Origin: Rhodospirillales bacterium
GTDB taxonomy: Bacteria > Pseudomonadota > Alphaproteobacteria > Rhodospirillales > JANQFP01
Direction: 5' to 3'
DNA length: 41,710 nt
NCBI GenBank assembly: GCA_028277795.1
Contig: JANQFP010000056.1
Location: forward strand, 1 to 41,710
The translations under genes were made by a program, and so were the position numbers. Positions within the stretch are counted from its first letter, which is position 1. The number at the start of each line of letters is the position of its first letter. The notes beneath the pieces are model-generated. The model did no database searches. It was not told the DNA's origin and worked only from the letters and a program-made list of their open reading frames with translations. This document shows positions 1,365 through 20,633 of the stretch, piece after piece.

Positions 1365-2120
1365 TCAATCGGCGGCGGGAAAGACGTCGCCCGCCGTAAT
1401 GCGGCGTTCGCCGCCGTCCTGGCGCAGGACCAGGGCGCCGCCCTCGTCGAGGGCGGCGAAGACACCGCCCAGGGTCTCCCGCTCCAGGCGCACCGTCACC
1501 GGCTGGCCGAGGCCGTGGGCCCGGCCCAGCCACGCCCGGCGCACGGCGGCGAACCCCACCCGGCGCCAGGTGACCCGCCACGCCTGGAAGCGGCTGCAGA
1601 AGCTTTCCAGCAGGTCCGGTTCGGTGGCATCCGGCGCGCCCTCGGCGTGCAGGGACGTCGCGGGGAATTCGGCGTCGGCCGGGAAATGGGCCAGATTGAT
1701 GCCGAGGCCGACGACCTGCCAGTCCAGGGCCTCCCCCGCCGCGGCCGCCGATTCCAGCAGGATGCCGGCCACCTTGCGTCCTTCCACCAGCACGTCGTTG
1801 GGCCACTTGCAGGTGACGTAGGCGTCGGGCGGCAGTGCGGCGGCGACCGCGTCGGCAGCAGCGATGGCGGCAACGAAGGTGGCCTGGGCCGCCTCCGACG
1901 CCGGGTACTCCGGGCGGACCAGAACCGAACAGTAAAGATTGCCCTCCTCCGACACCCACCGCCGGCCGCGGCGGCCCCGTCCCGCGGTCTGGCGCCGCGC
2001 CCACACCACGGTGCCGTCGGCGGCGCCCGCCGCGGCCAGCCGCTTGGCCTCGTCGTTGGTGCTGTCGACGGTGTCCAGGGCGATGAGGCGGAAGGGCCTG
2101 GGGAGGGCCACCCCCGTCAT
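1365..2120 (-). CDS. birA: Biotin--[acetyl-CoA-carboxylase] ligase, monofunctional
   Basis: Activates biotin with ATP and attaches it to the biotin carboxyl carrier protein of acetyl-CoA carboxylase. The 251-residue protein shows [11 protein letters not shown] near residue 19, the biotinyl-AMP loop GRGRRGRRW near residue 48, and [17 protein letters not shown] in the core. A C-terminal SH3-like domain follows. The N-terminal winged-helix repressor domain of E. coli BirA is absent, so this is a class I ligase that should not repress transcription. The start codon overlaps the nuoN stop by four bases (ATGA), placing it in the complex I operon. Gene order nuoN-birA-coaX-rnj is a recurrent alphaproteobacterial arrangement. 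Confidence 0.95.
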
Positions 2121-3595
2121 CCGGCGAACAGGGCCGCGGTGGCGGCCTCGGCGCCGGCCAGCAGCGGCCCCGGGAAGGCGAAGAACAGGACGATCAGCAC
2201 ACTGGCGGCCGCCAGCACGCCGGCGATGGGTCGCGGGATGGGCCGGTCGAGGACCTGGTCGGGCTCGTCGAAGTACATGACCTTGACGATGCGGACGTAG
2301 TAGTAGGCGGCCACCACGCTCGACAGCACGCCGATTATCGCCAGGGTGTAGAGCTGGGCATCGACAGCGGCCAGGAAGATGTAGAGCTTGCCGAAGAAGC
2401 CGGCCAGCGGCGGGATGCCGGCCATGGAGAACATGAACACCCCCATGGCCAGGGCGACCAGCGGGTGGCTCTTGGACAGGCCGGCTAGGTCATCGATCTC
2501 CACCACCATGTGGTCGCCGCGCCGCATGCACAGGATGCAGGCGAAGGCGCCCAGGGTCATGAACACGTAGATAGCCATGTAGATGAGGATGCCGCGCACG
2601 CCGACCTCGTCGCCCACCGCCAGGCCGATCAGCGCGTACCCCACGTGGCTGATGGAGCTGTAGGCCATCAGGCGCTTGATGTTGGTCTGGTTGATGGCGG
2701 CGAAGGCGCCCAGGATCATCGACGCCACGGAGACGAAGATGACGATCTGCTGCCACTGGGCTACCAGGTCGCCGAAGGGCCCGATCATGACCCGCACCAA
2801 GAGCGCGATGGCGGCGATCTTGGGAGCGACGGCGAAGAACGCGGTCACCGGCGTCGGGGCACCTTCGTAGACATCGGGGGTCCACATGTGGAACGGCACC
2901 GCCGAGACCTTGAAGGCCAGGCCGGCGAGGATGAAGACGACGCCGACGATCAGACCGACCGAGGGGGTGTGCCCTGTCTCCCCCTGCAGGGCCGCCGCCA
3001 GCACCTGGAAATCGGTGGAACCGACGAAGCCGTAGACCAGGGAGGCGCCGTACAGCAGCAGCCCCGAGGCCAGCGCCCCGAGCACGAAATACTTGATGCC
3101 GGCCTCGGTGGAGCGGGCGTCGTCCTTCTGGAAGGCGGCGATCACGTACAGGGATAGGCTCTGCAGCTCCAGGCCCAGATAGAGCGCGATGAGATCGTTG
3201 GCCGAGATCATCATCATCATGCCCAGGGCCGCCAGCAGCACCAGGATCGGATACTCGAACCGGGCCATGCCCTGCATCTCCAGGTAATCCCGGGAGATTG
3301 TGATGCTCAGGGCCGAGGCGATCAGGACCAGCACCTTGAAGAACACGGCGAAGGGATCGGTGATGAACAGGCCGCCGAAGGTCTCCATGCGCGGTCCGGC
3401 CACCGTCCATACCAGCAGCAGCGCCAGCACCAGGGTGATGACCGACAGGTTGGCGATCAGCCGCGCCGCCGCCACCGCCCCGTCCCCGTCGACAGCCTTC
3501 TGAAAGACCCCGAGCATGAGCAGGGCCATGGCCGCGCAGGCCATGAACAGCTCGGGCAGGGCGGGGATCAGGTTGGGGACTTCGGCGATCGGCAT
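2117..3595 (-). CDS. nuoN: NADH-quinone oxidoreductase subunit N
   Basis: One of the three antiporter-like proton-pumping subunits in the membrane arm of complex I. The 492-residue protein is almost entirely hydrophobic helices. It carries family signatures [15 protein letters not shown] (first third), [22 protein letters not shown] in the discontinuous-helix region, and [20 protein letters not shown]. The conserved Glu of the LELQSL helix and Lys of FKVSAVPFH are the expected proton-path residues. It is the last nuo gene of the cluster and overlaps birA by four bases; nuoM ends 19 bases upstream. Length is normal for the family (about 480-490). Confidence 0.98.
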
Positions 3596-3614
3596 GGGAC
3601 TCGTCGGTTCCTTG

Positions 3615-5129
3615 TCAGCGCCCGGCCAGGGCGACGCCTTCGGTCACCGCCCGTGCCAGCTCGAACTGCTGGATCAGGTTTTCCACCGAGGCATGCATGG
3701 GATCGAGGAAGGACGGCGGATAGATGCCCATCCACAGCACCAGGATCACCAGCGGCGCGAACACCGCCACCTCCCGCGGGCTCATGTCGGTGATCCGCTG
3801 CAGGTGGGCCTTGGTCAGCTTGCCGAAGATCACCCGGCGATAGAGGTACAGCATGTAGGCGGCGCCCAGCACCACGCCGGTGGCGGTCAGCGCCGCCACC
3901 CAGGTGTTGACCTGGAAGACGCCGACCAGGACCAGGAACTCGCCGATGAAGCCGCCGGTCCCCGGCAGCCCCACCGAGGCCAGCATGAACAGCATGAACA
4001 CCAGCGCATAGCCCGGCATGCGGTGCACCAGGCCGCCGTAGGTCTCGATGTCGCGCGAGTGCATGCGGTCGTAGACCACGCCGACGATGAGGAACAGGGC
4101 GGCCGAGACGATGCCGTGGCTGAGCATCTGGTAGATGGCCCCTTCGATGCCCTGCACGGTGACGGTGAACGCGCCCACGGTGACGAAGCCCATGTGGGCG
4201 ACCGAGGAGTACGCGATCAGCTTCTTCATGTCCTCCTGGGCCAGGGCCACCAGCGAGGTGTAGATGACGGCGACGATGCTGAGGGTGTAGATCAGCGGCG
4301 TGAACGTCACCGAGGCGTCGGGGAACATGGGCAGGGAGAAGCGCAGGAAGCCGTAGCCGCCGAACTTCAGCAGCACGCCGGCGAGGATCACCGACCCCGC
4401 CGTCGGCGCCTCGACGTGGGCGTCGGGCAGCCAGGTGTGCACCGGCCACATGGGCACCTTCACCGCGAACGAGGCGAAGAAGGCCAGCCACAGCCAGATC
4501 TGCACCTCCGGCGGGAAGCGGTAGGACATCAGGGTCGGGATGTCGGTGGTCCCGGCGTACAGGTACATGACCAGCATGGCCACCAGCATCAGCACCGAGC
4601 CGGCCAGGGTGTAGAGGAAGAACTTGAAGGCGGAATAGACTCGCCGCGGCCCGCCCCACACGCCGATGATCAGGAACATCGGGATCAGGACGCCCTCGAA
4701 GAACACGTAGAAGACCACCAGGTCGAGGGCGCAGAACATGCCCACCATCATGGTCTCCATGACCAGGAAGGCGACCATGTACTCCTTGACCCGCTCGGTG
4801 ATGCTTTCCCAGCTCGCCAGCACGCACACCGGGGTCAGCAGGGTCGTCAGCAGCACGAAGAACAGCGAGATGCCGTCCACGCCCAGGCGGTAGCTGATGT
4901 TGAACGCCGGCATCCAATCGGCCCGCTCCTGGAACTGGAAGGCGGCCGTCGAGTTGTCGAAGTTGAACCAGATGAACAGGGACAACACGAAGGTGACCAG
5001 GGAGGTCCACATGGCCACCCTGCGGGCGTTGCGGGCCACCACGTCGGGTTCGCCGCGGATGGTGAGGATGAACCCCGCCCCGACCAGGGGCAGGAAGGTC
5101 ACCAGGGACAACAGGGGGAAGTGGGCCAT
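3615..5129 (-). CDS. nuoM: NADH-quinone oxidoreductase subunit M
   Basis: Antiporter-like membrane subunit of complex I, contributing one proton channel. The 504-residue sequence opens with [20 protein letters not shown] and has about 14 hydrophobic helices. [14 protein letters not shown] carries the conserved membrane Glu; [19 protein letters not shown] carries the conserved Lys and the discontinuous helix; [15 protein letters not shown] is the second half signature. It lies six bases after nuoL and 19 bases before nuoN. Length is typical. No disrupted motif was seen. Confidence 0.98.
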
Positions 5130-5135
5130 GGCGTC

Positions 5136-7094
5136 CTAGCCTCCCCGCTGCCACAGGTACCAGGTGATCAGGATGGCCACGCCGATCAGCATGGCGAAGG
5201 CGTAGTGGTAGAGGTAGCCGGTCTGCAGGCCGGCAATGCGCCGTGCCAGGTTGCGGGTCGCCGCCGCCACGCCGTCCGGCCCCACGCCGTCGATCAGGGC
5301 GCCGTCGCCGGACTTCCAGAACCCACGTCCGAGGACGAAGGCCGGCCGCACGAACAGCCAGTCGTAGAGCTCGTCGAAATACCACTTGTTGAGCAGGAAC
5401 TGATAGACGGCGCGGAAGCGCTCGGCGAGCAGGCCGGGCAGGTTGGGCGACAGCACATAGAGGATGAAGGCCAGCCCGATGCCGCCGGCTGCCACCACCA
5501 GCGGCAGGAACTTGACCCAGGCGGGCACATGGTGGGCGTCCTCCAGCGCCGAATGCTCGGGCAGCACGAACACCGCATTGCCCCAGAACCCCGGCGCATC
5601 GGCGCCGACGAACCACTGGTAGCCGATGTATCCGGCGAACAGGGCGCCGGCCGCCAGCAGCAACAGCGGAATCAGCATCACCATGGGCGATTCATGGACG
5701 TGGGCCATCACCTTCTCGTCGGCCCGCGGCGCCCCATGGAACGTCATCAGCAGCAGCCGCCACGAATAGAAGGCGGTGAGGAAGGCCGCCAGGATCCCCA
5801 GCCAGAAAGCATAGGAGCCCACCCCCGTATGGGCGGCCCAGGCCGCCTCCAGGATGATGTCCTTGGAGAAGAAGCCGGCGAACGGCCAGATGCCGGCCAG
5901 GGCCAGGGAGCCGATCCACATGACCGCGTAGGTGACCGGGATGGTCTTGTAGATGCCGCCCATCCGGCGCATGTCCTGTTCGTCCGACATGGCGTGGATC
6001 ACCGAGCCGGCGCCCAGGAACAGCAGCGCCTTGAAGAAGGCATGGGTCATCAGGTGGAAGATGCCGGCCGAGTAGGCGGACACCCCGCAGGCGAAGAACA
6101 TGTAGCCGAGCTGCGAGCAGGTGGAATAGGCGATCACCCGCTTGATGTCGTTCTGCACGCAGCCCACGGTGGCGGCGAAGATGGCGGTCGACGCCCCGAC
6201 GATGGTGACCACCGCCAGCGCGATCTCGGAGAACTCGAACAGCGGCGACAGGCGGGCCACCATGAACACTCCGGCGGTGACCATGGTGGCGGCGTGGATC
6301 AGGGCCGACACCGGGGTCGGGCCCTCCATGGCGTCGGGCAGCCAGGTGTGGAGGCCGAGCTGGGCCGACTTGCCCATGGCGCCGACGAACAGCAGCAGGC
6401 AGATGACGGTCAGCGCGTGGAACTCGCCGCCGAACACCTGGAAGACGGCGTCGGCCTTGCCCGGGGCGGCGGCGAAGATGGTGTCGAAGTGGATGGACTG
6501 GAATAGCACGAAGACGGCGAAGATGCCGAGCGCGAACCCGAAGTCGCCGATGCGGTTGACGATGAACGCCTTGATGGCGGCGGCGTTGGCCGACGGCCGG
6601 TCGTACCAGAAGCCGATCAGCAGATAGGACGCCAGCCCGACCCCCTCCCAGCCGAAGAAGAGCTGCACCAGGTTGTCAGCCGTCACCAGCATCAACATGA
6701 AGAAGGTGAACAGGCTCAGGTAGGACATGAACCGGGGGATGCCCGGATCGTGGTGCATGTAGCCCACCGAGTAGACGTGGATCACCGCCGCCACCGAGGT
6801 CACGGTGAGCAGCATCACCGCCGACAGGGTGTCCATCTTCAGCGCCCACGACACCTCCAGGGCGCCGGAATCGATCCAGGTGAGCAGCTCCACGGTGTGG
6901 GGCCGCCCGCCGCCGACCACGTCCGCGAACACGAAGGCGGCGACCACGGCGGACAGGATCATTGCGCCGCAGGTGACCCACTGGGACAGGGTGTCGAAGC
7001 GGGCCCGCCGGTCCTTGTCCTCGGGCGTGAACAGGGCCATGAGCCCGGCGATGATCGAGCCCAGCAGCGGCAGAAAGACGGCGATGGCGGCCAT
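5136..7094 (-). CDS. nuoL: NADH-quinone oxidoreductase subunit L
   Basis: Largest antiporter-like subunit of the complex I membrane arm; its C-terminal lateral helix runs along the other pumping subunits (family knowledge). The 652-residue protein shows FGWEGVGLASYLLIGFWY, SAQLGLHTWLPDAMEGPTP and DIKRVIAYSTCSQLGYMFFA, with about 16 hydrophobic segments. A long amphipathic stretch near residues 520-600 (including FLLNKWYFDELYDWLF) precedes the final helix, matching the lateral-helix region. nuoK lies ten bases upstream. Length fits the family (about 610-690). Confidence 0.98.
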   Translation of the reverse strand: MAAIAVFLPLLGSIIAGLMALFTPEDKDRRARFDTLSQWVTCGAMILSAVVAAFVFADVVGGGRPHTVELLTWIDSGALEVSWALKMDTLSAVMLLTVTSVAAVIHVYSVGYMHHDPGIPRFMSYLSLFTFFMLMLVTADNLVQLFFGWEGVGLASYLLIGFWYDRPSANAAAIKAFIVNRIGDFGFALGIFAVFVLFQSIHFDTIFAAAPGKADAVFQVFGGEFHALTVICLLLFVGAMGKSAQLGLHTWLPDAMEGPTPVSALIHAATMVTAGVFMVARLSPLFEFSEIALAVVTIVGASTAIFAATVGCVQNDIKRVIAYSTCSQLGYMFFACGVSAYSAGIFHLMTHAFFKALLFLGAGSVIHAMSDEQDMRRMGGIYKTIPVTYAVMWIGSLALAGIWPFAGFFSKDIILEAAWAAHTGVGSYAFWLGILAAFLTAFYSWRLLLMTFHGAPRADEKVMAHVHESPMVMLIPLLLLAAGALFAGYIGYQWFVGADAPGFWGNAVFVLPEHSALEDAHHVPAWVKFLPLVVAAGGIGLAFILYVLSPNLPGLLAERFRAVYQFLLNKWYFDELYDWLFVRPAFVLGRGFWKSGDGALIDGVGPDGVAAATRNLARRIAGLQTGYLYHYAFAMLIGVAILITWYLWQRGG

Positions 7095-7103
7095 TCTCGA
7101 GCC

Positions 7104-7415
7104 CTAGCCCTTCATCAGGTTGATGTCTTCGACGGCGATGGTGCCGCGGTTGCGGAAGAACACCACCAGGATGGCCAGCCCGATGGCCGCCTCGGCCGCC
7201 GCCACGGTGAGCACGAACATGGCGAAGACCTGGCCCACCAGGTCGCCCAGGTGGGCGGAGAAGGCGATCAGGTTGATGTTGACCGCCAGCAGCATGAGCT
7301 CCACCGACATCAGGATGACGATGACGTTCTTCCGGTTGAGGAAGACGCCGAAGATGCCGAGGGCGAACAGGATCGCCGCCACGGTCAGGTAATGGGCGAG
7401 GCCGATCTCGAACAT
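7104..7415 (-). CDS. nuoK: NADH-quinone oxidoreductase subunit K
   Basis: Small three-helix membrane subunit of complex I (MrpC-like) in the proton path between NuoJ and NuoN. The 103-residue protein begins [17 protein letters not shown] and contains [20 protein letters not shown] with the conserved Glu in the second helix; a second membrane Glu lies in [11 protein letters not shown]. The ATG at 7415 overlaps the nuoJ stop by one base (TGATG); an upstream in-frame extension was rejected because it would run through nuoJ and is not hydrophobic. Length is as expected for the family. Confidence 0.97.
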
Positions 7416-8023
7416 CAGATCCCCTTCCCCGGCTCGACCTTGCGCACCTCGACGCACTCCTCGGGCCGCCGCGCCACCTGGTCGGCGATGCGCTGGCGGC
7501 GTACCCCGGGACGCCGGCGGTGGGTCAGCACGATGGCCCCGATCATGGCGATCAGCAGCACCATCCCCGCCGCCTGGAACAGGTAGAAATAGCGGGTGTA
7601 GATCAGCTCGCCGAGGGCGTGGGTGTTGGTCAGCCCTTCGGGTGTCGGCGCGGCCACCGCCGCCGTTGCCTCGGGCGCCAGGGTCCAGCCGCCGAGGACC
7701 ATCAGCAGCTCCACCAGCAGCACCAGACCGATCAAGCCGCCGACCGGCAAATAGTGAAGAAATCCCTGGCGTAACTCGACGAAATTGATGTCCAGCATCA
7801 TGACCACGAACAGGAACAGCACGGCCACCGCGCCGACGTAGACCACGACCAGGATCATGGCCAGGAACTCGGCCCCCAGCAGCACGAATAGGCCGGCGCT
7901 GTTGAAGAACGCCAGGATCAGGAACAGCACCGAATGCACCGGGTTGCGGGCCGAAATGACCATCACCCCCGCGGCCACGGTGACCAGGGCGAACAGATAG
8001 AAGGCCAGTCCCTGGACGATCAT
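7415..8023 (-). CDS. nuoJ: NADH-quinone oxidoreductase subunit J
   Basis: Membrane subunit of complex I with five predicted helices, next to NuoK and NuoA. The 202-residue protein begins [19 protein letters not shown]. It contains [20 protein letters not shown] and [20 protein letters not shown], the latter being the third helix with the family pi-bulge region. A long extra-membrane loop near residues 115-135 and a basic C-terminus follow. The ATG at 8023 is preceded by AGGGGAATTCT, a good ribosome binding site. The stop overlaps nuoK by one base. A 79-base gap rich in runs of C separates it from nuoI. Confidence 0.97.
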
Positions 8024-8102
8024 AGAATTCCCCTGCCGGGCGCCGCCTGCGCCCGGGCCATCATGCCGGCGGTTCCGGACATCCCCCCTGCGATCCCCCC
8101 GT

Positions 8103-8594
8103 TCATCGGTACGGCGCGACGGCCTCCAGATTGGCAGCGATCTCGGTCTCCCAGCGGTCCCCATTGGCCAGGAGCTTGTCCTTGTCGTACATGAGCTCCG
8201 CCCGCGTCTCGGCGGCATACTCGAAATTGGGCCCTTCGACAATGGCATCCACCGGGCAGGCCTCCTGGCACAGGCCGCAATAGATGCACTTGTTCATGTC
8301 GATGTCGTAGCGGGTCGTGCGGCGGCTGCCGTCGGCGCGCGGCTCGGCCTCGATGGTGATGGCCTGGGCCGGACAGACGGCCTCGCACAGCTTGCAGGCG
8401 ATGCAGCGCTCCTCGCCGTTGGGGTAGCGCCGGAGCGCGTGCTCGCCGCGGAACCGGGGGCTCAGCGGCCCTTTCTCGTAGGGGTAGTTGAGGGTCACCT
8501 TGGGCCGGAACATGTAGCGCAGGGTGAGCGCCATGCCCGACAGCAGCTCGGTGAGCAGGACGGTGCGCGCGGCACCGCGATCTATGAATCCCAT
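8103..8594 (-). CDS. nuoI: NADH-quinone oxidoreductase subunit I (two 4Fe-4S clusters)
   Basis: Ferredoxin-like subunit carrying clusters N6a and N6b that pass electrons from NuoG toward NuoB. In 163 residues it has two complete CxxCxxCxxxCP motifs: Cys 64, 67, 70 and 74, and Cys 103, 106, 109 and 113. An amphipathic N-terminal helix ([18 protein letters not shown]) anchors it to the membrane arm. The start ATG at 8594 gives [14 protein letters not shown]. nuoH ends 19 bases upstream. Length is typical for alphaproteobacterial NuoI. Confidence 0.98.
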
Positions 8595-8613
8595 GATCCG
8601 CTCCCTCCTCTCC

Positions 8614-9645
8614 TCAGCCCGCCACCGGCGTCAGGTCGAACACCACCAGGAACCCGGCCACCACGGCCACCGCGGCCAGCGAGATGGGCAGGAACACCTT
8701 CCAGCCGAGCCGCATGAACTGGTCGTAGCGGTAGCGCGGGAACGTCGCCCGCACCCACAGGAAGATGAACAGCACAAAGACGATCTTGAGGATGAACCAG
8801 ATGGGTCCGGGAACCCAGGTGAACGGCGCCACGTCGAAGGGCGGCAGCCAACCGCCCAGGAACAGCACCGCCGTCATCGCCGACATCAGGATCATGTTGG
8901 CGTACTCGCCCAGGAAGAACAGGGCGAAGGTCATGGCCGAGTACTCAACGTTGTAGCCGGCCACCAGCTCGGCCTCGGCCTCAGGCAGGTCGAAGGGGTG
9001 GCGGTTGGTCTCGGCCAGGGTCGAGACGAAGAATATGACGGCCATGGGCAGCAACGGCACGACGAACCAGTTCAGCATGCCGAGGGACCCCTTCTGGGCC
9101 ATCACGATGTCGGTCAGGTTGAGGGACCCGACGCACAGCAGCACGGTGATGATGACGAACCCCATGGACACCTCGTAGGACACCATCTGCGCGGCCGAGC
9201 GCAGGGCGCCCAGGAAGGCGTACTTGGAGTTGCTGGCCCAGCCGGCCATGAGGATGCCGTAGACGCCCAGGGACGAGATGGCGAACAGGTAGAGGATGCC
9301 CACGTTGATGTCGGCCAACACCATGCCGTCGCCGAAGGGGATCACCGCCCACGCGATGAGCGACAGGATGAAGGTCAGCATGGGCGCCAACACGAACACC
9401 GCCGGATTGGCGCCGGTGGGAATCACCGTCTCCTTGAGGAACAGCTTCAGTCCGTCCGCCATCGGCTGCAGCAGGCCGAACGGGCCAACCACGTTGGGGC
9501 CGCGGCGCAGGTGCATGGCGCCGATGACCTTGCGTTCGGCGTAGGTGAGATAGGCCACGGCGACCAGCAGCGGCAGCACGATGGCGAGGATCTTGGCCAC
9601 GATCCACGCCACCTGCCCGACCGGGGTGTCCAGGAACTCAGCCAT
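8614..9645 (-). CDS. nuoH: NADH-quinone oxidoreductase subunit H
   Basis: Membrane-arm subunit that forms much of the quinone chamber. The 343-residue protein starts [20 protein letters not shown] and carries the family blocks [36 protein letters not shown], and [20 protein letters not shown]. These include the acidic residues that link the quinone site to the proton path. The ATG at 9645 overlaps the end of nuoG by eight bases; a 60-residue upstream extension was rejected as it reads through nuoG and is Arg-rich. About eight hydrophobic helices are visible. Confidence 0.98.
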
Positions 9646-11707
9646 CGGTCCCGGTCTTCCTGTCCTGGGGCGCGGCGCAAAGGGCCGAGCATTCGGCCAT
9701 TGTGGGCGATGCGCGGCTGATGGGATCGGTGCCGTAGAAGTCGGCGACCGGCGAGGCGAACGGCGCCGCCTCCATCTTGCCCGCAGCCCCGAACGGGCCC
9801 CACGGCGCCGGCACCACGTCGCCAACCGCGGCGAACACGGGATTGACCTCGGTCAGGCGGTCGCGCACCTGGCCCAGGTTGTCGTAGGGAAGCGGGCGGC
9901 CCAGGGCGTCCGACAGGGCGCGGAGGACGGTCCAGTCCTCGCGCCCCTGCCCCGGCGGGAAGACGGCGCGCGCCGTCCGCTGGACCCGGCCTTCCGTGTT
10001 GACATAGGTGGCGTTCTTCTCGGTGTAGGCGGCACCCGGCAGGATCACGTCGGCACGGCTCGCGCCGGCGTCGCCGTGGTGGCCCTGGTAGATGACGAAG
10101 GCCCCGCCCAGGCCGCCGGTGTCGATCTCGTCGGCGCCCAGCAGGTAGACCACCTCCACCTCACCCTTGGCGGCGCCGTCCAGGATGCCGGCCACGTCGC
10201 GGCCGCCCTCCCCCGGCACCAGGCCCAGGTCCAGGCCGCCGACCCGCGCCGCCGCCGTGTGCAGGACGTTGAAGCCGTTCCACCCGTCGGCCTCGCGCAC
10301 CATCTCGAAGCGCTCGGCGATGGTGCGGCAGGCGGCCAGAACCGCGGCCCCGTCGGGGCGCGCCAGCGCGCCCATGCCGACGATGACCATGGGCCAATGG
10401 GCGGCTTGGAGGCGCTCGGCGAAGGGATGTTTGCCGGCCGCCAACTGCTCGATCACGGCGGGATCGTTGCCGAGGATCTCGGTGCGATAGGTGAGGTCGG
10501 CGGCCTCGCCGATCACGCCCACCGTGAAGCCGCCCATGACGAAGCGCTTGCGCAGGCGGGAATTGAGCACCGCGGCCTCGATCCGCGGATTGGTGCCCAC
10601 CAGCAGGCAGACGTCGGCCTGCTCGATGCCGGCGATGGTGGTGTTGAACAGGTAGCCGGCCCGGTTGCCGGGGTCGAGCTTGGCCCCATCCTGCCGACAG
10701 TCCACGTGGGGCGAGCCCAGGGCCGCCATCAGGTCCTTGAGGGCCACCATGGCCTCGCAGTCTGCCAGGTCGCCGGCGATGGCCGCGATGCGCGGCCCGG
10801 CGACCCCGTCCAGGCGCTCGGCGATGGCGGCGAAGGCCTCCTGCCACGTGGCCTCGACCAGGCGGCCGTCGCGCCGCACGTAGGCCCGGTCGAGCCGGCG
10901 ACGCTTCAGCCCGTCACAGGCGAACCGGGTCTTGTCGGAGATCCATTCCTCGTTGACCTCCTCGTTGAGGCGGGGCAGGACGCGCAGCACCTCGGGGCCG
11001 CGGGCATCGACGCGCACGTTGCTGCCGACGGCGTCAAGGACGTCGATGGACTGGGTCTTGTGCAGCTCCCAGGGGCGGGCGGCGAAGGCGTAGGGCTTGG
11101 AGGTCAGGGCACCGACCGGGCACAGGTCGATCATGTTGCCCGACAGCTCGGAGGTCAGCGCGTGCTCCACGTAGGTGCCGACCTCCATGGCCTCGCCGCG
11201 GCCGGTCGCCCCCAGCTCGGGCACGCCGGCCACCTCGGTGGCGAACCGGATGCAGCGGGTACAGTGGATGCAACGCGTCATCTCGGTGGCGATCAGGGGA
11301 CCCAGGTCCTTGTCCTCGACGGCGCGCTTGTTCTCCTGGAAGCGGCCGCGGTCGAAGCCGTAGGCCATGGCCTGGTCCTGCAGATCGCACTCGCCGCCCT
11401 GGTCGCAGATGGGGCAGTCCAGGGGGTGGTTGATGAGCAGGAACTCCATCACCCCCTTGCGCATCTTGCGCACCTTCTCGGTGTTGGTGTGGATGACCAT
11501 GCCCTCGCCGACCGGCATGGCGCACGAAGCCACGGGCTTGGGCGCCCGCTCCATGTCGACCAGGCACATGCGGCAGTTGCCGGCGATGGACAGACGCTCG
11601 TGGTAGCAGAAGCGGGGGATCTCGATGCCCACCTGCTCGCAGGCCTGGAGCACGGTCAGACCCGGCTCCACCTCCACTTCCCGGCCATCGATGGTCAGTT
11701 TCGGCAT
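9638..11707 (-). CDS. nuoG: NADH-quinone oxidoreductase subunit G
   Basis: Peripheral-arm iron-sulfur subunit of 689 residues. The N-terminal ferredoxin domain has Cys 34, 45, 48 and 62 for the 2Fe-2S cluster N1b. His 94 with Cys 98, 101 and 107 bind 4Fe-4S cluster N5, and Cys 146, 149, 152 and 196 bind N4. A degenerate molybdopterin-oxidoreductase domain follows. I do not see the extra four-Cys N7 ligand set found in some bacteria. It lies nine bases after nuoF and overlaps nuoH by eight bases. Length matches alphaproteobacterial and mitochondrial-type NuoG. Confidence 0.98.
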
Positions 11708-16476: not shown

Positions 16477-16554
16477 TGGCGGGAGTGACGGGACTCGAAC
16501 CCGCGGCCTCTGGCGTGACAGGCCAGCGCTCTAACCGAACTGAGCTACACCCCC
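16477..16554 (-). tRNA. tRNA-Asp (GTC)
   Basis: Cloverleaf is readable on the minus strand. Acceptor GGGGGTG pairs with CACTCCC (one G-T pair), D arm GCTC/GAGC, anticodon stem CTGGC/GCCAG with loop CTGTCAC (anticodon GTC at 16517-16519), and T arm GCGGG-TTCGAGT-CCCGT. The discriminator base is G, as expected for Asp, and CCA is encoded at 16477-16479. It sits just upstream of nuoA. A decayed copy of its 5' half lies at 17986-18023. Confidence 0.97.
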
Positions 16555-16621
16555 GGGATGCTAACGCCGCGGTGGTCGTTGGGTGTAATCCACCCCCCGG
16601 AGGGTGTCAAGGCGCACCGCC
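16523..16621 (-). repeat. Direct repeat copy A: tRNA-Asp 5' half plus its promoter region
   Basis: This stretch covers the 5' half of the functional tRNA-Asp and about 65 bases of its upstream DNA. It matches 17986-18083 over its full length: 30 of 38 bases identical in the tRNA part without gaps, and about 80 percent in the upstream part with short indels. Identical blocks include CCCCGGGATGCT, GCCGCGGTGGTC and GTGTCAAGGCGCACCGCC as read on the plus strand. The two copies bracket the AbiE-like gene pair. Confidence 0.85.
16582..16610 (-). promoter_or_regulatory. Putative tRNA-Asp promoter
   Basis: On the minus strand a perfect -35 TTGACA (16605-16610) is followed by a 17-base spacer and a weak -10 TACACC (16582-16587). 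The predicted start is about 20 bases before the mature tRNA 5' end at 16554. It is the only good promoter seen ahead of tRNA-Asp and nuoA. Confidence 0.6.
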
Positions 16622-16669
16622 ACGACGTTGACGCGGCGTCCGCGACGTGGGAGGAGTCCCGCTCTCGGC

Positions 16670-17446
16670 TCAGTGCGATTCCATCGAACCGTTCCCGGCC
16701 GCTTCTTCGGCGGTGACCTGCGCCGCCCTTTCCGTTTCCCACGCGGCCACATGCGGCCGCAGGGCCTCGGTCACGGCGGCGAGATCGCCCGGAGCACCGG
16801 CCACAAGCGGCTCGACGCCCGGATCGGCCTTCGGCGCCGCCGCCGGTAGCAGCCGGGCACGGATCAGGCTGTCCGAATAATGCGGGTTGGCGTCCCGCAT
16901 GTGCGCGACGACCTCGTGGATGGTGCGACCGCCATGGGTCAGAAACCACCACACGTCGAACAGATCGCGGGTGGCCGTGCGCGACACCAGAAGACGGCAC
17001 TTGGCCGCGAAAAGGGCCTCGGTGTCGAGGACCCCCAACACGCCATACCGGCGCACGCGCTGGCGGCCGAGTTGCCGCGCCTCTTCGTCCGACGCAGCGG
17101 CGACAAACGTGACCTTGATGCCGTCCACCATCCAGTCCTGCTGATGGTCGTCGATGTCCTCCCCTTCGTTCTCCCAATACAGCCGTGCGGCCGCGTCCGT
17201 GGCCAGCAGAAGCGTTCGACCGGGCGCACCCAGGTCCGCGATCGCCGCGGATACGGCAGCCCGTGGCAGCCGGGTCTCCGGCCACGCGAGGTCGATGTCC
17301 TCACTGTGGCGATGGGATACCTGCAGGGCCAATGCCGTTCCGCCGATCAGCCGGAAACCATCCAGGCCGCGAATGCGCGACACCGCTTGCAGGACGGCAC
17401 GGGTCCCGGCCGGCAGGGCGTCAGGCCGCAAGCCTTCGATAGACAC
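16670..17446 (-). CDS. AbiEii-type nucleotidyltransferase toxin
   Basis: Putative toxin of a type IV (AbiE) toxin-antitoxin system. AbiEii-family proteins are nucleotidyltransferases that modify cellular targets (tRNA 3' ends in studied relatives). The signature block FRLIGGTALALQVSHRHSED followed by IDL shows the GGTALAL loop, the HRHS motif and the DID metal-binding acidic pair. FAAKCRLLVSRTATRDLFDV is the typical second-half block. A GTG at 17446 is preferred as start (GGGAG seven bases upstream, 258 residues); a TTG at 17464 would add six residues. It overlaps the upstream antitoxin gene by 26 bases, so the two are coupled. The downstream neighbour is tRNA-Asp. Target and role in phage defence are inferred from family only. 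Confidence 0.85.
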   Translation of the reverse strand: MSIEGLRPDALPAGTRAVLQAVSRIRGLDGFRLIGGTALALQVSHRHSEDIDLAWPETRLPRAAVSAAIADLGAPGRTLLLATDAAARLYWENEGEDIDDHQQDWMVDGIKVTFVAAASDEEARQLGRQRVRRYGVLGVLDTEALFAAKCRLLVSRTATRDLFDVWWFLTHGGRTIHEVVAHMRDANPHYSDSLIRARLLPAAAPKADPGVEPLVAGAPGDLAAVTEALRPHVAAWETERAAQVTAEEAAGNGSMESH

Positions 17447-17873
17447 GGCCCGCTCCCACCGCAACGTTGGCCAGCATGTCCCGGGAGATCGCGGCGAGCT
17501 CGGGCCGGATCTCGCCGGTCTCGGTCATCTCGCGCAGCGTCGCCCGCAGCCGGCGATGCCCGAAAGCGTGGGCCAGCCGCGCCAGATCGCCCACGGTCGG
17601 GTTCGCCAAGACGGCGGCGATCAGGACGCCGTCCGGCACGCCCGACGGCCTGCTCCAGGTCCGGTTCACCTCCATCTCGGGCTGTCGGTGCGGCAGCAGC
17701 CGCCACAGCCCTCCGCCGACCCGCTCGACATGATACGCCTGCTCCAGCCGGCGCAACGCCCGGCCGACTTGGTCGTAACCCCCGAGCCGCGCCAGGTCGG
17801 CCCGGCGAAACAACGGCCGGCCGGCGGCCTGGAGATGGCGCAGGATTCTCCACGAAAGCGTGCCATACCTCAT
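17421..17873 (-). CDS. AbiEi-like antitoxin/transcriptional regulator
   Basis: Partner of the downstream AbiEii-like toxin. The 150-residue protein begins MRYGTLSWRILRHLQAAGRP and has a winged-helix-like N-terminal half: ILRHL...FRRADLARLGGYDQVGRALRRLE, then a wing around VERVGGGLWRLLP. The C-terminal half has VLIAAVLANPTVGDLARLAH, which resembles AbiEi-associated regions. AbiEi antitoxins bind their own promoter (family knowledge), so autoregulation is likely. The ATG at 17873 lies almost on the predicted transcription start, suggesting a leaderless message; a GTG at 17906 is an alternative start but would overlap the promoter. It overlaps the toxin gene by 26 bases. Family assignment rests on gene pairing and fold pattern, less on a strong motif. 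Confidence 0.72.
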   Translation of the reverse strand: MRYGTLSWRILRHLQAAGRPLFRRADLARLGGYDQVGRALRRLEQAYHVERVGGGLWRLLPHRQPEMEVNRTWSRPSGVPDGVLIAAVLANPTVGDLARLAHAFGHRRLRATLREMTETGEIRPELAAISRDMLANVAVGAGRVYRRLAA

Positions 17874-17879
17874 GACGCA

Positions 17880-17908
17880 AATATACGACAACGGCGCCAG
17901 AAACACAA
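17880..17908 (-). promoter_or_regulatory. Putative promoter of the AbiE-like operon
   Basis: On the minus strand, TTGTGT (17903-17908), a 17-base spacer and TATATT (17880-17885) precede the ATG at 17873 by six bases, which would put the transcript start at or next to the start codon. This is an AT-rich island in high-GC DNA. A TATAAT also occurs just upstream (near 17909-17914), without a good -35. Confidence 0.55.
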
Positions 17909-17985
17909 ATTATATCAGAGAGTTGCTATGGCAGAAGCCGCGGCGAAGTCGAGGCCGGGACCCGCCTTGTCCAGGGCGGCCCCCG

Positions 17986-18083
17986 CCAGCCCTCCGAACG
18001 AACTGACCTGCGTCCCCGGGATGCTGACGCCGCGGTGGTCTGTTGGGTGTCGTCGCCCCCTGGCGGTGTCAAGGCGCACCGCC
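17986..18083 (-). pseudogene. Decayed tRNA-Asp 5' half with promoter (direct repeat copy B)
   Basis: Positions 17986-18023 align without gaps to the 5' half of the intact tRNA-Asp (16523-16560), 30 of 38 bases identical. Upstream DNA to 18083 aligns to the tRNA-Asp promoter region, keeping TTGACA (18067-18072) but with a damaged -10. The 3' half of the tRNA (anticodon stem onward) is not recognisable to the left, so no functional tRNA can be made. The retained -35 faces the AbiE operon. It marks a past duplication or insertion at tRNA-Asp. Confidence 0.75.
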
Positions 18084-18145: not shown

Positions 18146-20368
18146 TCAAAGGGTCCGCGCGACCCGGAAACCGGTGGCGAAGACAGGCCTGGTCGGATCG
18201 ATCCGGCTGCGTCTGGCAGACCGGTAGTACGGAGCTTCGCTGTTCCAACCGCCGCCGCGGATAACGCGACGAGTGCAGGACTCGTCCCAACCGCCAACCA
18301 TTTCCGGGTAGCTCCCGTGGGTGCCGTAGGCCTGTTCGTCGTAGCAGTCCGCCACGGCCTCCCAGACGTTGCCGATCATATCGTGAAGGCCGAAGGGGTT
18401 CGCCCGGTAGCTGCCGACCGGCGCCGTCTTGGTGTGCCCGTCGTCGCATTCGGCATGTCCCGACTTGAAATCGTTCGCCCGTTTGCTCGCCTGGTCCCTG
18501 ACATTGGCGAAACGGCATGCGACCACTGGATCGTCGCCCCAATGCCTCGACGCGGTGGTTCCCGCCCGCGCCGCGTATTCCCATTCGGCTTCGGTCAGGA
18601 GACGGTAGCGGTGTCCGGTCTTGCGGGATAACCACGCCGCGTAAGCCTTTGCCGCCTGCCAGTTTACGCACACCACGGGATGGTCGTCGGTTTGGGGGAA
18701 TCCGGGGCTCCGCCAGTTGCTGCCGTCCTTCCATTGCCATTTCTTTTCCCAAACCCGGCACCGGTTGCCGGCATCGTACCCGGTGTCGCGGACGAACTCG
18801 GCGAACTGGCCTCTGGTCACCTCGTAACGGCCGACCGCCAACGGCCTGACAATGGTCACACGGTGCTGCGGGCCTTCGTTGCCTTTCCGGTACGCCTCCC
18901 ATTCCGGCGAGCCCATCAGGAAAGACCCCGGCGGCACCACCACCATCTCGGGACAGTCGGCGCAGTCCTTGAAAAAGGATCCCGGCACGTGCCGTTCGGG
19001 ATAGGCGCCGACGGCCGGCCGGACTCGCGTCGGCCCCGGCCCCACGGTGCTCGGGCGCGGAAGGCGCCCAGGTGCGTAGGCAACCAGCACCTTCTGCTCG
19101 TCTCCGAGCACGGTCGCCTGCTGGGGCCGATTGAAGCGGCGCCGGGCGGCGTAGGTCATGTCCCTGTCCAGATAGGCTTTGACCTCCGCCAGGGTCACCG
19201 CACCGTTGCCGTTGCCGAACGGTGCCGCGTCGGCACGGCCGTACAACGCACGCAGCACGTGGGCCGTGAAAAGGCCGTGGCCGGCCTCCCTGTCCCAGCT
19301 CGCCAACTGCGTGCCCTGCGCGGCCGTCACCACGGTCAGGCCCTGCGCCACCGCCGGCACCTTGGGCGTCACGTGGACCGGGCTCGCCTCCTGGCCGATC
19401 AGCATGCCCTCGGGTGACTCCCCGGAAAAGCAGGCGTCCAGGAGCACGGTCACCGACCGGGCCTCGATCTTGGCCAGGTTCTCGTACAGCAGGTCCACCG
19501 GGTAGCCGTTGATCTCGGGCGTGTCGGGATTGGCGTCCACCGGCAGCAGATAGCCGCGCCGGTCCTCCCGGCCGGGGACCCCGTGGCCCGAGTAGAACAC
19601 CACGACGTCGGACTCGCCGGGGCGGACGAACTGGTACAGCCGCCCCTTGTGGCTGGCGCGGCTGCCGAACACCGACATGAGCTCCGCCTGGGTGGCGTCG
19701 CGAAGATCGATGATGTTGCCCCGCCGGTAGCCCAGCACCTTGGCGACGAACCGACGGACCGCGGCGGCGTCATTGTGGGCATACGCCACCTCCGGCACGC
19801 GGCTGGCGTAGGTCCGGTTGCCGATGATCACGGCGACGCCGTCCAGGTTCTCGGCCGCCGGCGCTGGCACCGTGAATTCACCCGCGACCAGGGACCCGAC
19901 GACAGAGGCCTCGACGGGCCTGACAGCCGGCTCGGCGGGTGGTGGCGTTGGTGCCGACCTGATGGGCCGCGGTCGCGGCTTCGACGCTCGGGCCGGACGA
20001 AATACGAACCCGGCCTCACGAAAGCTGTCGGAATTGCAGAACGTTCGGTTCAGGGAAGCGTTCCAATAGAAATTCCATCGGATTCCCTGGGCGGAAAGCT
20101 CGGCCCTTTTCCATCCATCCGCCCCCCTTTCCACGGAGTAGACGGTCATCCTTTGCGAAAAGGATTGCTTGCTCTCACCCGGGGTGCCCTTCTTGAAGGC
20201 GACGACGCATCGCGTGCCGGCGAGCTTTCTCGCCTCCTCCGCGTCCGGTGTCGAGAGGTCGCCGGAAGCCGCACAGCCGCCGATGACCGCGGCCATGGCG
20301 AGCGCGGCAATCCCCGTCAACAGTAAGTAGGACCGGCCAATGACACCACGATCCGGTTGTTGCCCCAT
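18146..20368 (-). CDS. Caspase-like (peptidase C14) lipoprotein fused to an SUMF1/FGE-type domain
   Basis: A 740-residue predicted lipoprotein. A hydrophobic signal segment (about residues 14-31) ends in the lipobox VIGGC, with Cys 32 as the lipidation site. Residues about 45-125 form a Cys-containing domain I do not recognise, followed by a Pro/Ala-rich linker (130-175). Residues 176-430 form a caspase-fold peptidase with the catalytic His in YSGHG (His 262) and Cys in DACFSG (Cys 313). Residues about 470-740 form an SUMF1/formylglycine-generating-enzyme-like domain: MVVVPPGSFLMGS, YRLLTEAEWEYAARAG, GLHDMIGNVWE, RVIRGGGWNS. In true FGE the region after RGG(S/G)W carries two catalytic Cys; here it reads NSEAPYYRSARR, so copper-oxidase activity is unlikely and a binding role is more plausible. 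Caspase-SUMF1 fusions are known in bacteria; substrate and trigger are unknown. It lies between tRNA-Val and the tRNA-Asp relic. Confidence 0.9.
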   Translation of the reverse strand: MGQQPDRGVIGRSYLLLTGIAALAMAAVIGGCAASGDLSTPDAEEARKLAGTRCVVAFKKGTPGESKQSFSQRMTVYSVERGADGWKRAELSAQGIRWNFYWNASLNRTFCNSDSFREAGFVFRPARASKPRPRPIRSAPTPPPAEPAVRPVEASVVGSLVAGEFTVPAPAAENLDGVAVIIGNRTYASRVPEVAYAHNDAAAVRRFVAKVLGYRRGNIIDLRDATQAELMSVFGSRASHKGRLYQFVRPGESDVVVFYSGHGVPGREDRRGYLLPVDANPDTPEINGYPVDLLYENLAKIEARSVTVLLDACFSGESPEGMLIGQEASPVHVTPKVPAVAQGLTVVTAAQGTQLASWDREAGHGLFTAHVLRALYGRADAAPFGNGNGAVTLAEVKAYLDRDMTYAARRRFNRPQQATVLGDEQKVLVAYAPGRLPRPSTVGPGPTRVRPAVGAYPERHVPGSFFKDCADCPEMVVVPPGSFLMGSPEWEAYRKGNEGPQHRVTIVRPLAVGRYEVTRGQFAEFVRDTGYDAGNRCRVWEKKWQWKDGSNWRSPGFPQTDDHPVVCVNWQAAKAYAAWLSRKTGHRYRLLTEAEWEYAARAGTTASRHWGDDPVVACRFANVRDQASKRANDFKSGHAECDDGHTKTAPVGSYRANPFGLHDMIGNVWEAVADCYDEQAYGTHGSYPEMVGGWDESCTRRVIRGGGWNSEAPYYRSARRSRIDPTRPVFATGFRVARTL

Positions 20369-20400: not shown

Positions 20401-20429
20401 AGTATCGTCCCGACCCGCCTGCGGGTCAA
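20401..20429 (-). promoter_or_regulatory. Putative promoter of the caspase-SUMF1 gene with internal palindrome
   Basis: TTGACC (20424-20429), a 17-base spacer and GATACT (20401-20406) on the minus strand, about 32 bases before the ATG at 20368. A perfect inverted repeat, GACCCGC-2 bases-GCGGGTC (20412-20427), overlaps the -35 and spacer and could be a repressor operator. Confidence 0.55.
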
Positions 20430-20557: not shown

Positions 20558-20633
20558 TGGTGGGCGGTGACGGGCTCGAACCGCCGACATCCACGGTGTA
20601 AACGTGGCGCTCTCCCAACTGAGCTAACCGCCC
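20558..20633 (-). tRNA. tRNA-Val (TAC)
   Basis: Minus-strand cloverleaf: acceptor GGGCGGT/ACCGCCC, D arm GCTC/GAGC, anticodon stem CCACG/CGTGG with loop TTTACAC (anticodon TAC at 20598-20600), and T arm with loop TTCGAGC. Discriminator A and encoded CCA at 20558-20560. In many alphaproteobacteria tRNA-Val and tRNA-Asp are adjacent between hup and nuoA (recalled synteny); here about 4 kb of accessory DNA separates them. Confidence 0.97.

Follow-up and report, generated by a model that had tools for sequence, protein, structure and literature searches.

The gene and its protein

What a bacterium might do with a caspase anchored in its envelope is the question raised by a single gene in a 41,710-nucleotide stretch of DNA from a Rhodospirillales bacterium (the window, in what follows). 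The gene (18146–20368, on the minus strand, as are all the features of the window given below) lies among tRNA genes and next to an AbiE-type toxin–antitoxin (TA) pair. It had been predicted to encode a caspase–SUMF1 lipoprotein that could sense something at the membrane and trigger proteolysis, possibly leading to cell death on phage attack. ORF calling and Pfam agreed with the proposed frame, coordinates and strand: the ORF is intact, with an ATG start and no internal stop over 740 residues, and a consensus scan placed a sigma-70-like promoter candidate (TTGACC-17-GATACT; 20401–20429) 33 bases 5' of the start (1 found, 0.3 expected).

The N-terminus (residues 1–32; 20273–20368) reads as a lipoprotein signal peptide, with a hydrophobic stretch followed by a VIGG-C32 lipobox; by this rule-based check, the product is a predicted lipoprotein. 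It is followed by a module (residues 33–125; 19994–20272) that belongs to no Pfam family and carries conserved cysteines at positions 54 and 111 and a GW motif. In the AF2 model (pLDDT 77 for this part), the module forms a helix over a four-stranded sheet. Its best matches in the PDB, cystatin-like and DsbG-N-like, were weak and not confident (Z ≤ 5.2), and therefore we claim no fold for it. The two-Cys module (about 90 residues) also stands alone in small lipoproteins of relatives (L198, L199 and L201), and its joining to a caspase was seen in the window protein only. A proline-rich linker (residues 126–170; 19859–19993), modeled with low confidence (pLDDT mostly below 50 over residues 106–168), leads to the caspase domain (residues 171–437; 19058–19858) and then to the FGE/SUMF1 domain, of C-type-lectin fold (residues 459–740; 18149–18994). 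The mean pLDDT of the whole model was 75.7, with both large domains mostly above 90.

The locus

The original prediction held that the gene sits in an accessory pocket between core genes, and the comparison of the locus across the order agrees on both counts. We compared 34 copies of the locus fetched from relatives within the order. Most of them share the scaffold lon-hup-tRNA-Val-tRNA-Asp-nuoA-nuoB, in which the pocket is flanked by lon-hup at one end and by nuoA-nuoB at the other; neither the caspase gene nor AbiE was present in any of the 34. Both tRNAs were found on the fetched piece in 24 copies; the gap between them was shorter than 350 bases in 14 of these and ranged from about 670 to 4,670 bases in the other 10, the value for the window being about 4,000. 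The absence of both cargoes from the 34 copies and the variable gap indicate that the pocket is a site of variable cargo and that the caspase gene is accessory, and a housekeeping gene at a fixed locus, the outcome that would have spoken against the original prediction, was rejected. The cargo of the gap differs between families of the order (L177, L168, L176 and L175).

Intact tRNA-Val (tac; 20558–20633) and tRNA-Asp (gtc; 16477–16554) genes were called by ARAGORN and Rfam. The tRNA-Asp relic that had been noticed near the caspase gene is also real: a decayed second copy of the tRNA-Asp leader and tRNA-Asp (~17945–18083), uncalled by either program, aligned to the intact copy with 82–84% identity over its best part and a score of 134, compared to at most 68 in 500 shuffles. 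The leader is thus present twice (17945–18083 and 16477–16640), and the decayed copy has kept a TTGACA box that might be the promoter of the AbiE pair. This pair is made of an AbiEi-like antitoxin gene (17421–17871, from an ATG at 17871, the listed ORF starting at 17906; PADLOC AbiEi, E 1e-8) and an overlapping gene for an AbiEii-like nucleotidyltransferase toxin (16670–17464; PF08843, E 1e-12). As AbiEii scores over the PF08843 cut-off and overlaps AbiEi, the pair is an AbiE type IV TA system, the assignment of AbiEi itself coming from weak PADLOC matches only.

The relic lies upstream of the AbiE pair and the intact tRNA-Asp after it, and this repeat bracket encloses the AbiE pair only, leaving the caspase gene outside. 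The proposed position of the caspase gene, between tRNA-Val and the relic and beside AbiE, was therefore correct, but the relic brackets the TA pair and not the caspase gene. This arrangement suggests that the two were separate arrivals, and the AbiE pair would be an independent passenger of the tRNA-bounded pocket in which the caspase gene also resides. A single mobile element bearing both was rejected, as no integrase was seen in the pocket and the repeat encloses AbiE alone.

The protease domain

Pfam places Peptidase_C14 at residues 177–376 (E 7e-14); the PADLOC caspase match of the same protein was weak (E 2e-7, 29 bits). The model of residues 171–437 matched the metacaspase AtMCA4 (6w8s; VIA Z 22.6, rmsd 3.0, 217 aligned residues) and MALT1 (3uo8; VIA Z 22.5), and with its caspase-hemoglobinase fold and its His-Cys dyad the domain classes as a C14 metacaspase/orthocaspase-like (C14B) protease. 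The dyad, H262 and C313, is invariant across an 11-member family alignment, in keeping with the earlier reading of an intact active site, and so are D200 and D311 (the latter within a DxC motif), which align with the corresponding positions of metacaspase-1. In metacaspases, two Asp positions of the S1 pocket accommodate basic P1 residues (PMC6426788). The window protein has this acidic S1 pocket, and cleavage after Arg or Lys is predicted from it. Given the invariance of these four residues, the alignment with metacaspase-1 and the fold match to AtMCA4 and MALT1, the domain is expected to be an active protease. The second half of the caspase domain also contains an EF-hand-like loop, which suggests control by Ca2+; the EF-hand profile gave a weak match in two relatives, and the loop of one relative reads canonical. 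Against this counts the degenerate window copy, in which the first Asp is missing and an insertion is present.

The FGE domain

The C-terminal domain fits both the profile of the FGE-sulfatase family (residues 472–738; Pfam, E 1e-62) and its C-type-lectin fold, the nearest solved structure to the model being PvdO (5hha; VIA Z 31.3, rmsd 2.3, 252 aligned residues). The replacement of the catalytic cysteines of SUMF1 that had been read from the sequence was confirmed, these positions being occupied by S710 and Y715; however, 56 of the 58 homologs inspected have no Cys in the catalytic segment, so that the absence is the norm for the family and nothing particular to the window protein. A functional formylglycine-generating enzyme was ruled out by the absence of the catalytic Cys pair, and the domain is probably a non-catalytic, ligand-binding one. 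It was also considered whether the domain might be the target of a diversity-generating retroelement. RVT_1 was absent from the genome in a profile search that detected its positive controls, and the 3' end of the FGE region had no template-like copy; with neither reverse transcriptase nor template copy, this candidate was ruled out as well.

A family of caspases with predicted export and exchanged C-terminal domains

The envelope location that had been proposed for the window protein is supported by its lipobox, and the prediction extends to its relatives. Of 24 relatives compared, 22 have a signal peptide or a lipobox by a rule-based check. The two exceptions are L004, which reads MNCLKAISVVLTAMALLAC and in which a lipobox can be recognized by eye, and L017, whose start is cut off. 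The window protein and nearly all its relatives are hence predicted to lie outside the cytoplasm.

What varies is the C-terminus. The partners found in the family include FGE, DUF4384, SH3_3, PG_binding_1 with MORN, cytochrome c, TolB_N with PD40, Sel1, and a combination of PEGA, CarboxypepD_reg and FGE. Within the genome of the window itself, one paralog has a caspase 68% identical to that of the window protein and ends in DUF4384, not FGE. Exchange of the sensor beside a retained protease is seen most directly in a pair of adjacent caspase genes in another genome, G003 (locus L203 on contig C5, ~2544–3565 and 4548–5575), a natural domain swap: they are 92.6% identical at the nucleotide level over 1,029 nt and then diverge into Sel1 repeats in one and FGE in the other. 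When mapped onto a tree of 30 caspase sequences, FGE requires 6 changes, at least 4 of them forced by well-supported branches, and shows no clustering. The gene was thereby shown to belong to an alphaproteobacterial family, exported by prediction, that combines a constant protease with exchangeable C-terminal domains.

Two further arrangements were observed. In L232 (G600, 7497–9698), an S41/PDZ processing protease precedes a C-terminal caspase, placing two proteases in one exported protein. Tandem arrays of at least three exported or lipoprotein caspase genes per locus occur in L222 (G142, 1749–8549) and in L203 (11494–17633), suggesting that several caspases act together.

The full caspase–FGE order is sporadic. 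A search of 317 genomes of the order at a threshold of E 1e-85 gave matches across both domains in 3, namely the genome of the window, G123 (53%) and G023 (46%), and 385 genomes sampled from the class added G359, with 54% identity over residues 172–738. The genome of the window holds 15 partial matches, including at least 2 other caspase–FGE proteins (L193 and L194). A search for a plasmid or phage source yielded no record in which one place covered 80% of the protein.

Genes around the relatives

The original prediction implied that the same domain order should recur beside AbiE or other defence genes. The genes around the relatives were instead metabolic or related to the envelope, according to ORF-based calls that include some shadow ORFs. 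PADLOC identified no recurrent defence family among 106 proteins neighboring the relatives, where the scattered single matches were cyclase-like, one reverse transcriptase and mads-like, and tblastn found no AbiE homolog in the fetched loci, a family divergent enough for weak relatives to escape such a search. Around the window gene itself, no adaptor, NTPase or gasdermin was seen adjoining it. Genes for SLT lytic transglycosylases were present in three caspase loci. In one of them (L220, 2227–2943), the SLT gene overlaps the closest caspase–FGE ortholog in the order, that of G123, while in L204 and L226 homologs are found at most ~2.5 kb from caspases; since two of the three loci share a gene block, the link to transglycosylases is a weak one.

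Possible functions

The best reading, in which we place moderate confidence, is that of an exported, lipid-anchored, metacaspase-like envelope sensor-protease that cuts after Arg or Lys. In such a mechanism, the FGE domain would bind a periplasmic or surface ligand, which might be a protein, a glycan or a cell-wall fragment; binding would release the caspase from its inhibition, perhaps together with Ca2+; and the freed caspase would cut envelope proteins after basic residues. Of the proposed ligand-dependent trigger at the membrane, the FGE domain stood as non-catalytic and probably able to bind a ligand, and death on phage attack found no support.

An anti-phage or conflict effector, whose FGE domain would sense an invader at the envelope and whose caspase would then trigger cell death, has several points in its favor, including the accessory pocket shared with AbiE, the sporadic distribution, the recurrence of FGE and caspase domains in predicted conflict systems (PMC7159879, PMC10907252) and the presence of C-type-lectin/FGE genes in bacterial gasdermin operons (PMC9612521). 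All the same, we regard it as improbable. The family is predicted to be exported, the neighbors of the relatives include no recurrent defence family, AbiE sits in a repeat bracket of its own, no adaptor, NTPase or gasdermin was seen adjoining the gene, and both a reverse transcriptase and a hypervariable template are absent. No finding connects the caspase–FGE protein specifically to phage defence, and surveillance or stress proteolysis in the envelope is more likely than a phage-triggered suicide device. The presence of AbiE next door invites a different proposal, that AbiEii is released when the caspase cleaves its antitoxin, AbiEi, in the manner of the orthocaspase MaOC1 and its ParD/ParE-like pair, with which the window shares a topology of caspase gene, direct repeat, TA pair and direct repeat (PMC7935541). 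This is very improbable: the lipoprotein signal would put protease and antitoxin in different compartments, so that the protease is unlikely to meet the cytoplasmic AbiE proteins, the repeats of the window derive from tRNA-Asp, and the fetched loci of the relatives gave no AbiE homolog by tblastn.

An envelope housekeeping protease with a fixed substrate, acting in the processing of lipoproteins or cell-wall enzymes and using FGE as a scaffold as in GldK/PorK, would be consistent with the peptidoglycan-type and TolB-like partner domains of the family, with PorK appearing among the structural matches and with the transglycosylase gene overlapping the G123 ortholog, homologs of which lie near caspases in two other families. 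It seems unlikely to us nonetheless, as the transglycosylase link is confined to three loci, and the sporadic presence and repeated C-terminal swaps argue against one fixed substrate.

The envelope sensor-protease reading could be widened to the whole family. Tentatively, and with more doubt than for the single protein, it may be envisaged as a polymorphic extracytoplasmic sensor–protease system in which recurrent recombination at the linker joins a constant exported caspase to envelope sensors that can replace one another (FGE/lectin fold, peptidoglycan-binding, SH3, TolB-like propeller, Sel1, DUF4384 and cytochrome c), a periplasmic layer of recognition and proteolysis parallel to the cytoplasmic caspase conflict systems. 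Discussion of bacterial caspases has centered mostly on death or conflict effectors of the cytoplasm, and a clade with predicted export, an intact active site and repeated swaps of envelope sensors would place caspase signaling in the periplasm. The Sel1/FGE swap pair of G003 offers a natural way to ask if the trigger of the protease is set by its C-terminal domain.

Comparison with known systems

The window FGE domain has the fold of PvdO (Z 31.3) and differs from it by the fusion to a caspase; the window protein scored 222 bits against the PvdO equivalog, far under the NCBIfam cut-off of 500. TagR is another of the periplasmic FGE-like proteins. GldK/PorK, the ring lipoprotein of the T9SS, is likewise a lipoprotein with an FGE fold, but it has no caspase domain and belongs to a different system. 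In the case of MaOC1, direct repeats flank a TA pair that lies after the orthocaspase gene (PMC7935541), a layout like that of the window, whereas the TA family, the origin of the repeats and the predicted compartment all differ.

The domain order itself was published for prokaryotic caspase homologs, where FGE was the fifth commonest partner, in 33 of 671 sequences (Asplund-Samuelsson 2012, PMC3501461), and 39 caspase–FGE cases were reported in cyanobacteria (PMC8283722). The window protein has the same order as these orthocaspases and metacaspases (PMC3501461), to which it adds a lipobox and the unnamed N-terminal lipoprotein module. In the EACC1-associated caspases (Kaur et al. 2020, PMC7159879), in turn, the caspase is constant and the C-terminal domain is one of many alternatives; the window family has this pattern in common with them and differs by its predicted export. 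The window protein scored 77 bits against NCBIfam caspase_w_EACC1, below the 140-bit cut-off, and PF19953, the EACC1 membrane protein, had no match in the genome of the window, in a search in which the controls were silent too. The combination of export and sensor swapping in one caspase clade was not found in the open-access papers searched. Caspase–FGE fusions and constant caspases with swapped partners were thus already published, and what the present family adds is the joining of predicted export with the swapping of sensors.
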